From the NCBI RefSeq assembly GCF_029633865.1, contig NC_079211.1:2154946-2218945 (forward strand): a stretch of 64,000 nucleotides of DNA, given 5' to 3'. Each line of letters starts with the position of its first letter. The first letter of the stretch is position 1. A program made the position numbers and the translations under genes. Below are positions 14,861 to 19,429 of this stretch, piece after piece. The notes beneath the pieces were generated by a model that was not told the origin of the DNA, ran no database searches, and saw nothing but the letters and a program-made list of their open reading frames with translations. This stretch comes from Lampris incognitus (lineage: Eukaryota > Chordata > Actinopteri > Lampriformes > Lampridae).

Positions 14861-14887
14861 TACTACTACTACTTTCGGCTGCTCCCG

Positions 14888-16630
14888 TTAGGGGGCGCCA
14901 CAGAGGATCATCCGTTTCCATCTCTTCCTGTCCTCTGCATCTTCCTCTGTCACACCAGCCACCTGCATGTCCTCCCTCACCACATCCATAAACCTCCTCT
15001 TTGGCCTTCCTCTTCTCCTCTTTCCTGGCAGCTCCATATTCAGCATCCTTCTCCCAATATACCCAGCATCTCTCCTCCACACATGTCCACACCATCTCCA
15101 TCTTGCCTCTCTTGCTTTGTCTCCAAACCGTCCAACCTGAGCTGTCCCTCTAATATACTCCTTCCTAATCCTGTCCTTCTTCATCACTCCCAATGAAAAT
15201 CTTATCATCTTCATCTCTGCCACCTCCAGCTCCTCCTCCTGTCTTTTCATCAGTGCCACTGTCTCCAAACCATACAACATAGCTGGTCTCACTACCATCT
15301 TGTAAACCTTCCCTTTAACTCGTGCTGGTACCCTTCTGTCACACATCACTCCTGACACTCTTCTCCACCCACTCCACCCTGCCTGCCCTCTCTTCTTCAC
15401 CTCTCTCCTGCACTCCCCGTTACTTTGGACAGTTGACCCCAAGTATTTAAACTCATATGCCTTCATCACCTCCACTCCTTGCATCCTCACCATTCCACTG
15501 TCCTCCCTCTCATTCACGCATAGGTATTCCGTCTTGCTCCTACTGACTTTCATTCCTCTTCTCTCCAGTGCATACCTCCACCTCTCCAGGCTCTCCTCCA
15601 CCTGCACCCTACTCTCACTACAGATCACAATGTCATCCGCGAACATCATCGTCCATGGAGACTCCTGCCTGATCTCATCCGTCAACCTGTCCATCACCAT
15701 TGCAAACAAGAAAGGGCTCAGAGCCGATCCTTGATGTAATCCCACCTCCACCTTGAACCCATCTGTCATTCCAACCGCACACCTCACAACTGTTACACCT
15801 CCCTCATACATATCCTGCACCACTCCTACATACTTCTCTGCAACTCCCGACTTCCTCATACAATACCACACCTCCTCTCTCGGCACCCTGTCGTATGCTT
15901 TCTCTAAATCTACAAAGACACAATGTACCTCCTTCTGGCCTCCTCTATACTTCTCCATCAACATTCTCAAAGCAAACATCACATCTGTGGTGCTCTTTCA
16001 TGGCATGAAACCATACTGCTGCTGCTGATCACCACCTCTCCTCTTAACCTAGCTTCTATTACTCTTTCCCATATCTTCATGCTGTGGCTGATCAACTTTA
16101 TACCTCTGTAGTTGTTACAGTTCTGCACATCGCCCTTGTTCTTGAAAATCGGTACCAGTATGCTTCTTCTCCACTCCTCAGGCATCCTCTCACTTTCCAG
16201 GATTGTGTTAAACAATCTAGTTAAAAACTCCACTGCCATCTCTCCTAAACACCTCCATACCTCCACAGGTATGTCATCAGGACCAACTGCCTTTCCACTC
16301 TTCATCCTCTTCATAGCTGCCCTCACTTCCTCCTTGCTAATCCACTGAACTTCCTGATTCACTATCCCTACATCATCCAACCTTCTCTCTCTCTCATTTT
16401 CTTCATTCATCAGCCCCTCAAAGTACTCCTTCCACCTTCTCAGCACACTCTCCTCACTTGTCAGCACATTTCCATCTCTATCCTTGATCACCCTAACTTG
16501 CTGCACATCCTTTGAAGCTTGGTCTCTCTGTCTAGCCAATCGGTACAAGTCCTTTTCTCCTTCCTTAGTGTCTAACATGTCATACAACTCACCATACGCC
16601 TTTTCCTTTGCCTTTGCCACCTCTCTTTGT
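14888..16630 (-). pseudogene. RTE-like reverse transcriptase part of the chimera
   Basis: From about 16630 the minus strand encodes the RTE-like linker (EKAYGELYD, DLYRLARQRD), RT motifs IPIFKNKGD-type and NYRGIKL, motif A FVDLEKAYDRVPREE, motif B GLHQGSALSPFLFA, motif C FADD, and the C-terminal domain ending [14 protein letters not shown]. The catalytic Asp residues are kept. Two lesions separate it from a working frame: a frameshift near 16015-16025, and a TGA where the related copies suggest Arg or a similar codon just after GFMP. Downstream, the frame 15982-14888 is open for 364 codons. It is closely similar to the copies at 1820 and 9107. Confidence 0.9.
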
Positions 16631-17676
16631 TTTACACTGCATAATTTTTTCTTATAAAGTTCAGGTGTTGGGGAATCGGCATATGAACGGTCCACTTCCG
16701 CTATACTATGGGACAGTTCTGTTAGACGTTTATGTTTCTTTCTCTCATGTGCTGTGTATGAGATTATTTGGCTTCTAAGGTAGGCTTTGAGAGCCTCCCT
16801 AACAATAGTTAGTGGCATATCTGGAGTATGGTTGAATTCCATAAAGAGATCTATCTGCTGGGAGAGAACATTTTTAAAGGAGTCCCTGGACAGTAATAGA
16901 GGATCAAATCGCCACGTGCGGTGGGGTTTAGGGCAGTCTATGAAACCTATATCTAGATGTACAGGACTATGATCCGAAATAACAATACTATTATATTGGC
17001 TCCCCCTAACTATAGGAAGGACCCTACTATCCAGGAGAAAAAAATCAATCCTTGAGTAAGAATGGTGCACTGGGGAAAAAAAGGAGTATTGTTTAGTAGT
17101 TGGGTTGTTTCTTCTCCAGGGATCAAAAAGAGAGTAGGATTCCATAAATGAATGGATAACAGCACCTGCCTTCGAAACTTTACTATTAGGTCTTGGGTTT
17201 GATCTGTCCAAATATGGATGTAATACACAATTAAAATCTCCCCCCAATATTAATCGGTAATTATTTAAGTCTGGGAGGGCTGTTATGAAACTAGAGAAAA
17301 AAAGTGGGTCATCCCAGTTTGGTCCATATACATTTGCTAGTGCCACATGTGTACCATACAGGTTACCCGTCACTATCACATACCTTCCCCTGGGGTCAGA
17401 AATAGTCAGTAGTGGAACGAATGGGATACCCTTCCTGATCAAGATGGCCGTGCCCCGCGTTCTGTTCTCATTCCTGGAACAGAACATTTGTCCTATCCAA
17501 GCTTTTTTTAGTTTTGTGTGTTCACTTGACCGAAGATGGGTTTCCTGTAAGAACATGACATCAGCTCTCAAAGATTTTAAATGTACAAAAACCCTACTAC
17601 GCTTTACTGGATTGTGAATTCCCTTTATATTCCAGCTCAAAAAACGAAGATAACCTGTATTCTGAGTGTCAAACAT
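16631..17676 (-). CDS. L1 ORF2 endonuclease domain fused in frame to RTE linker
   Basis: The frame begins with Met at 17676 and is open for 565 codons to 15979; the first ~349 are L1-type. It is an AP-type endonuclease with its catalytic motifs visible in order: SWNIKG (residues ~15-20), QETH, NVYGPN, GGDFNC, SRIDFF and SDHSP. These normally nick the target DNA to prime reverse transcription. After the endonuclease comes part of the L1 connector, ending LYKKKLCSVKQ. The next residues, REVAKAKEKAYGELYD, match the RTE-like copy at 26.9 kb. The downstream lesion means a full fusion protein could not be made today. A recently dead or defective element is the likeliest reading. Confidence 0.85.
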
Positions 17677-18388
17677 TTTTTCTAAAAATGAAAAGAGAAA
17701 AGAAAAGAAAAAGTCCCTGCCTACTAGCTACAAAACAAAAACAGAGCCTTGGGAACCCATGCTGATCTACTAATTCCCTAGAGATCGCATCCCCCATTTC
17801 TAGTATAACCTGGCAAATAACCATATAGAAACCCTCTAACAAGCCCCAACCAGGGCGAACAGTGGTCTTGTTAAGATTATATTAAATCCAAAAAGTATTT
17901 ATATACCTAAGAACTATATATCAACACCCATATTAAAAAAAATCTAAAAATTAAAATAAAAAAAAGAAAAGGAAGGAAAATATATCTACACCCATATAAC
18001 AGCAGTTATAATACAGTTCCTTTGTAGGTAAGTGACACTGACCTGGGTGTCGCCCTAGCAGTCGTCACCAAAGCACTGTTACGGGTCTCATAATAATTAG
18101 CATCCATACACACATATACATGCACACACACGATAATAATAAAACAGAAAAATAGCTTTTTTAACTGGGCAGCAGGTATGAGACATTCTTATTAAATGAA
18201 AAATGTAACATTATCTGTGAGTCTCAAATTACAAAAGTTAAAGTAAATAGATAAAGTTAAACCATAACGTTACCCTGTTGTCTTGGTGTCTTAGCTAGTT
18301 ACTTCCGCTAGCTGTTGGCACTTAGCAGCTAATATCAGTTAGCCACCAATACCAGTTAGCCACAAATATATTGGAATTCATCAACATC

Positions 18389-19177
18389 TTACTGTACATG
18401 GTCCTGAGGCTTTAGAGTCTCCCTGATATAACCCATCGCCTTAGATGGCTCTTCGAACCGCTTTTCTTGGCCGGACGATGACGTGATACGAAGCACCGCC
18501 GGGAACAGGATCCCAAACTTGACGCCCTGGCAGCCCCGGAGGAGCCGCTTAGCTTCGGAGAAGGCCGCTCTCTTCTTCGCCACCGCCGCGGTGTAATCCG
18601 GGAAGATGCTCCCTCTCTTGCCGTGCAGGCTCAACGGAGCTGAACGGGCAGCTTTGCGGAAAACCTCCTCCCTCTCTGAGAAATAGTGAAACTTCACCAC
18701 GATGATCCTGGGGGGTTCTCCTTTGTTGGTCGAGTGCCGCAGGTCGCGGTGAGCCGGGTCTAGGGTCGGGGTGAAGCTGAGGCCCAGTAACTCCTGCAGT
18801 AGTGTAGCGATGGTAATAGTAGGCTGCTGGCCTCCTCCGCTGGTCTCCAGTCCCTCCTTTATCCCGACAATACCTGCATTACACCGGCGTTGTCGCCCCT
18901 CCATACCGTCTACCTTCTGGCGTAGCATAGCGGCTTCAGGTGTTAGCTGGCCGGTGTCCTCCTCCATATTCGTGGTCTTGTCTGAGTATGTGTTCAAGCC
19001 GTCCTCCACGTCTTTCAGACGGGTCTCTTGTTTCGCCATGCCGGCCTTTATAGCGTCTATTTTTGCATTCAGATCCTCCGTGAATGAATCGATCCGTGCC
19101 AAGATCTTGCTCTCCCTGCTGGCGATGGCAGCCATCACCCCAGATAGGTCTGTAGACTCCCCGCCCGGGGCTTTCAC
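18389..19177 (-). CDS. L1-type ORF1 protein, 262 aa
   Basis: An open frame of 262 codons with the L1 ORF1 layout. Residues ~30-100 form a coiled-coil-like helix rich in heptads. An RNA-binding-type domain follows, with IIVVKFHYF and EEVFRKAAR, and then a basic C-terminal part with KKRAAFSEAKRLLR. In L1 elements this nucleic-acid chaperone coats the element RNA. It lies 5' of the ORF2 on the same strand with a 712-bp spacer, as expected for one L1 transcript. There is no frameshift or stop, so it could still be translated if transcribed. Confidence 0.85.
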   Translation of the reverse strand: MKAPGGESTDLSGVMAAIASRESKILARIDSFTEDLNAKIDAIKAGMAKQETRLKDVEDGLNTYSDKTTNMEEDTGQLTPEAAMLRQKVDGMEGRQRRCNAGIVGIKEGLETSGGGQQPTITIATLLQELLGLSFTPTLDPAHRDLRHSTNKGEPPRIIVVKFHYFSEREEVFRKAARSAPLSLHGKRGSIFPDYTAAVAKKRAAFSEAKRLLRGCQGVKFGILFPAVLRITSSSGQEKRFEEPSKAMGYIRETLKPQDHVQ

Positions 19178-19429
19178 AGAGCCCGAGGCTTAAGCGGCCT
19201 GGTCACTGCTGGATTTGTTTTTGCCCATCGCGTCTTCTAGATGATCGATATGCAAGTATGGGGTTGTGAGTCCGGTGTGCTGGCGGTTAAGTGTCGTGTG
19301 TGTTAAACCTAATTTATCTGTGTTTGATCTGGAAAGTTGAAATATTAATGAAAAGTTCGCCCTGATCAGGAGCTCAATCTAAAGACGTCCTCACATGTTA
19401 CTGCTCACCAGCGCCCCCCCACGCCAAAA

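Follow-up and report, generated by a model that had tools for sequence, protein, structure and literature searches.

Contig NC_079211.1 of Lampris incognitus carries, on the minus strand of a 64,000-nucleotide stretch (positions 2,154,946 to 2,218,945; hereafter the window, whose own coordinates are used below), a composite of two long interspersed nuclear elements (LINEs), in which the 5′ half of an L1-clade LINE runs directly into a 5′-truncated RTE-like LINE. We find that the composite probably derives from two ordinary LINEs that were inserted separately and became joined through loss of the DNA between them, and that it is very probably a real but ordinary rearrangement between two known kinds of element, not a new element. 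Both parental elements and both outer flanks are recognizable, the junction has a single match in a search of the genome, and the coding frames of the composite are broken.

Two LINEs joined within ORF2

The L1 part (19419 to 16641) extends from the canonical 5′ end to a point inside the second open reading frame (ORF2) and is 93-97% identical to the 10 copies that were fetched from the same genome. Half of these align in one block that begins at 19417-19419 and reaches 16641, two align in two blocks each (starting at 19421 and 19419) and three begin further in; all 10 stay L1 over the approximately 70 bases that follow the join point. The retained N-terminus of ORF2 (17676 to 16641; 345 residues plus one base, comprising endonuclease and linker) matches Exo_endo_phos in Pfam (5.3e-16), and its top-scoring solved relatives are LINE-1 ORF2 proteins (8.4e-41 over residues 6-330). 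As claimed by a first-pass annotation of the window, it possesses the motifs SWN, QETH, YGPN, GGDFN, SRIDFF and SDH, which we take to be the catalytic motifs of the endonuclease, such that the 5′ part has the L1-type endonuclease by which the L1 clade is recognized. Upstream, the ORF1 region (19228 to 18389) is interrupted by an early stop at 19192-19190 and is open from 19189 to 18389; six L1 copies were inspected, and none of the five whose start could be located carries this stop.

This L1 part shares with a fish L1-clade family of its own genome the 5′ end, the ORF1 region and the endonuclease, but differs in its stopped ORF1 and in the loss of the ORF2 3′ half, reverse transcriptase (RT) included, and of the tail. 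The missing 3′ half amounts to about 3.0 kb, as measured in the relatives L012, L013, L015 and L018, all of which have an A-rich tail and a target duplication with an A-run, and one of which (L018) has both ORF1 and ORF2 open. When the 3′ halves of five L1 copies, flanking DNA included, were compared with the window, no L1 3′ half was recovered, the sole match being 66 bases of flank at 61.6 kb, which bears out the earlier statement that L1 does not resume past the RTE tail. In one further L1 copy (L011, 6200-7900), an insert measuring about 1.7 kb and bounded on either side by GGTTAGAC lies approximately 115 bases beyond the junction point; a second RTE insertion was considered and rejected because the insert has no match in the window, and we presume it to be an unrelated DNA transposon.

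The 3′ element, for which we adopt the provisional name RTE used in the first-pass annotation, spans 16640 to 14860, beginning at about position 1354 of a full-length, 3142-base copy at locus L031, to which it is 95.1% identical, and ending in an (AGT)n tail (14873-14860). Two more copies of this RTE occur in the window at 9108-9812 (96.5%) and 1832-2134 (97.0%), both of which start inside the element, and the copy at 25611-27114, which keeps the 5′ part, is a relative of the same RTE. The sequence at 26.9 kb had been cited both as kin of the second family and as showing that this family has an endonuclease of its own: the kinship is confirmed, and the endonuclease is indeed visible, although weak in Pfam (0.0017, below the curated score). 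The related protein P0034 (918 residues) combines an apurinic-type endonuclease (Exo_endo_phos, 8.5e-05; 22.9 bits, just under the curated 24.5) with an RT (RVT_1, 3.3e-36) in one protein, as in RTE. Other characters of the RTE clade that are given in PMC2887409 were likewise found: the 3′ end is short and carries simple repeats, many copies are truncated at the 5′ end, and target duplications are short, the last of these being clear in 8 of 20 copies in a crude scan. The window copy belongs to an own-genome family to which P0034 and other fish proteins are related; it is 95-97% identical to three other copies and has in common with them the short (AGT)n 3′ end and 5′ truncation. It differs in being truncated, with its RT frame broken and its own endonuclease absent. 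Because 19 of the 20 RTE copies sampled have a best alignment that begins at one or another internal position of the element (at least one of which, L042, is a broken alignment and not a true end, and BLAST ends may miss true 5′ ends), the start of the RTE in the window requires no special cause.

The two parts abut at 16641/16640, with about two bases (AT) common to both sides. The first-pass annotation had noted an L1 endonuclease frame that continues without a stop into RTE-like sequence, and this observation stands: the chimeric frame comprises 582 codons (17727-15979) and is open from the ORF2 start at 17676 through 15979. It does not, however, reach the RT active site, as FADD lies in a separate open frame (15997-14888) that holds the RT domain (RVT_1, 5.7e-26); relative to L031 the RTE coding frame is shifted near 16023, and the chimeric frame ends before FADD. 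Exactly at the join, the L1 frame and the RTE frame as read in L031 do not coincide, and the two come into register only through a short stretch some 10-20 bases past the join, which has 10 bases here, two fewer than the 12 present in three of five RTE copies (L031, the 26.9-kb copy and L050; the others have 13, in L036, and 11, in L037). Since the frames disagree until this shorter stretch, ORF1 is stopped early and the RT frame is broken ahead of FADD, the open frame across the join appears to be accidental, and the locus in its present state cannot make the full hybrid protein that had been proposed.

The junction itself was found once. A search of the whole assembly (1,481,484,146 bases in 537 contigs) with a 501-base query across the join produced 2487 candidates, and among the best 40, which were scored, the 39 other than the window are L1 and stop on the L1 side of the join, at query position 260 (38 matches) or 256 (one match). 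Similarly, a 36-base junction pattern with up to three mismatches matched once, in the window, and its reversed control not at all; the several loci by which the first-pass annotation would have recognized a mobilized chimeric family were not found. Matches of the open frame to proteins number 2212, and among the 120 listed, 25 match both sides of the join, with RTE-side identities of 19-33%; to judge from these alignments, they behave as ordinary L1 proteins would. Six catfish proteins that seemed to match over the whole length (P0001, P0003, P0005, P0006, P0010 and P0020) were rejected as gene models with repeated RTE segments, not L1-RTE fusions. Literature searches returned no title on an L1-RTE fusion, which is no proof of absence.

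Outer flanks and target-site duplications

Upstream of the L1 5′ end lies a fragment (20000 to 19420, minus strand) of a repeat that is 83-86% identical to 39 other scored copies (of 783 candidates) and that we take to be Penelope-like; two of three fetched copies contain YGLPKIHK in translation, and the window's piece has no match in Pfam. In all three fetched copies, the repeat continues beyond the point at which L1 is inserted. This continuation is not next to the fusion, the three copies matching the window only to 19420, with the exception of small far-end matches (positions 621-709) of Penelope-like copies at 10.7, 29.2, 41.5 and 54.2 kb. The last bases ahead of L1, AAATTTTGGC, are the Penelope-like repeat's own and have an A-run at their start, as do the target duplications of all four L1 copies tested (L012, L013, L015 and L018).

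Past the RTE tail, the sequence from 14859 to 14804 (minus strand) matches a palindromic repeat that also occurs at 61.7-62.9 kb and is presumably MITE-like (resembling a miniature inverted-repeat transposable element). At locus L031, this palindromic repeat is interrupted at the identical point by a full-length RTE, which has the same orientation and is bounded by a 17-base duplication. When the RTE 3′ end served as query (best 40 of 3092 candidates scored), the match ended at the RTE 3′ end itself (query 100-108) in 38 of 41 rows, and the other three rows are the window and two from L031. That two RTE copies (L031, 4928-8296, and the window, 14804-14860) occupy one site of the palindromic repeat in one orientation also hints at a possible insertion preference. 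Each LINE thus occupies an interrupted repeat of its own, and the two repeats differ.

No duplication links the two ends. The RTE 3′ flank has no convincing match in the bases before L1 (score 4, with an equally good result in 99.9% of shuffles) or in the L1 bases that precede the join (an equally good result in 48%), whereas the controls yielded matches of 11-17 columns in three RTE copies (two in the window and L031) and 14-18 columns in four L1 copies. We initially regarded the missing duplication as strong evidence, given that all three hand-picked RTE controls had one, and downgraded it after the larger, automatic scan (20 of the 38 other RTE places, which were fetched); because only 8 of those 20 show a clear duplication, its absence is weak evidence when taken alone.

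Origin of the junction

Because the two flanks are interiors of two different interrupted repeats, we favor two separate insertions, and consider it likely that a loss of the intervening DNA then brought the LINEs together. In such a scenario, L1 would have inserted at full length into the Penelope-like element, at an A-run target, and the RTE would have inserted separately, further along and in the same orientation, into the palindromic repeat. A single deletion, closed by end joining at about two bases of microhomology, may then have fused the two; with it would have gone the L1 3′ half, what was left of the Penelope-like element, the half of the palindromic repeat that faced L1 and, probably, a portion of the RTE 5′ region. 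A deletion with a two-base overlap is the simplest route; that the missing pieces once stood here, and in how many steps and in what order they were lost, is an inference. In a close variant, the deletion would have occurred during the insertion of a 5′-truncated RTE, the end of its complementary DNA being joined to a break inside L1; we count it as such because target-site deletions are reported for 5′-truncated L1 insertions (PMC2912911).

Two points weigh against this scenario. The deletion itself is unseen, and we only infer it. In addition, the L1 and RTE proteins meet at roughly co-linear positions: residues 6-330 of the window's L1 align with residues 4-326 of human L1 ORF2p, which would place residue 345 near 341, and the RTE side begins near L1 ORF2p 343 by the alignment of P0034, in a region of low alignment confidence. 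By a crude estimate, if breakpoints were distributed uniformly, about 2% of them would lie no more than 30 bases from the homologous position. We give this co-linearity modest weight, because a reader in search of plausible hybrid frames would preferentially choose such a case.

The first-pass annotation had left the cause between a template switch and a deletion, and the two different repeat flanks and the lack of a spanning duplication fit the deletion better. In a template switch, target-primed reverse transcription of the RTE would have jumped from RTE RNA to L1 RNA at 16641 and copied to the L1 5′ end, producing one joint insertion. The common orientation of L1 and RTE, the extension of L1 to its canonical 5′ end and the roughly co-linear join all agree with this, and LINE chimeras of such a kind exist (PMC2104539). 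Nor is a single locus an argument against it, because U6/L1 chimeras are independent events that usually do not spread, as described in PMC13174262. However, template-switched LINE chimeras are reported in PMC2104539 to be enclosed by direct repeats of 10-20 bases, whereas no single duplication encloses the composite in the window, its L1 5′ flank and RTE 3′ flank sharing none. This point is weak alone, since clear duplications accompany just 8 of the 20 RTE copies scanned and are reported for 20 of 27 5S/L1 chimeras, not for all (PMC13174262). More telling is that the flanks are interiors of different repeats, so that a joint insertion would need a target lying precisely where the two repeats meet; moreover, the L1 5′ flank carries the A-run that is typical of L1's own target. 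We regard a template switch as improbable, and keep it under consideration because the join is roughly co-linear. In its most specific form, the RTE's RT would have left its own RNA for L1 RNA at the matching position in the linker between endonuclease and RT and yielded a co-linear hybrid ORF2 that combines an L1 endonuclease with an RTE RT, with the locus damaged later and one flank changed, which we deem quite improbable. The known products of template switching (MINE of Magnaporthe; U6/L1 of mammals) likewise join the 3′ part of a LINE to some other transcribed sequence, both in one orientation, but are reported with target duplications around the chimera; the window's composite shows no such duplication and is flanked by two unlike repeats. 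If a template-switch hybrid were the true explanation, it would mean that two deep LINE clades had exchanged sequence within ORF2.

A direct insertion of the RTE into this L1, with later loss of the far L1 half, is similarly unlikely. The order of the two elements, their common orientation and the lack of L1 after the RTE would all be accounted for, but the RTE 3′ flank is not L1 but the palindromic repeat found at the L031 RTE site, which would already have to have been present within L1, and the shuffle comparison of that flank with the L1 side of the join reveals no duplication. An assembly error that joined two repeats is about as doubtful: both sides are high-copy repeats, in which misjoins occur, but the contig of 155 Mb suggests a modern assembly, although it says nothing specific to this join. 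Finally, a mobilized LINE family in which L1 ORF1 and endonuclease are combined with an RTE reverse transcriptase, the swapped-module architecture suggested by the first-pass annotation on the strength of a frame open over the join, is ruled out for practical purposes by the genome-wide junction pattern (one locus in 1.48 Gb), by ORF1 and RT frames that are not intact and by both-side protein matches of the ordinary L1 kind.

Known hybrids and neighboring repeats

With so many copies of both elements in the genome (2487 and 3092 first-look candidates), deletions between LINEs and nested insertions are to be expected, and are of little importance alone. The locus nevertheless illustrates fairly well that, through non-homologous joining, the 5′ half of one LINE can come to stand ahead of the RT half of another. 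A similar route has been proposed by which LINEs may exchange modules (Metcalfe and Casane, 2014; PMC4120745), in which a hybrid arises when a 5′-truncated LINE inserts into another LINE; there, too, the 5′ part of one LINE is followed by a 5′-truncated LINE of another clade. Unlike that route, the join here falls within ORF2, the RTE was probably not inserted into L1 itself, and the product is broken and without sign of having moved.

Several other repeats were observed in the window, and no Rfam family matched it at gathering scores. Two RT fragments adjoin the Penelope-like piece, one at 20326-20706 on the plus strand (RVT_1, 1.7e-10) and the other at 20744-21064 on the minus strand (5.2e-05, below the curated score). 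At 4746-6671 there is a tandem array with units of about 150-180 bases, in which pieces like the RTE 3′ end (12 matches, mostly of 41-46 bases) lie between TC and AAT runs; it looks like a minisatellite that has grown from RTE tails. A repeat of about 300 bases is present at 13000-13291, 11894-12195, 27115-27411, 33024-33299 and 59031-59337 (84-86% identical to the first), and the copy at 27115 directly adjoins the broken end of the 25.6-27.1-kb RTE. A GTGGC-rich minisatellite, its unit about 44-54 bases long, occupies 13412-13726. A short minus-strand segment at 23237-23311 is similar over 25 residues to a papain-family protease near its C-terminus (PF00112; 6.2e-06), and is possibly an exon of a host gene.

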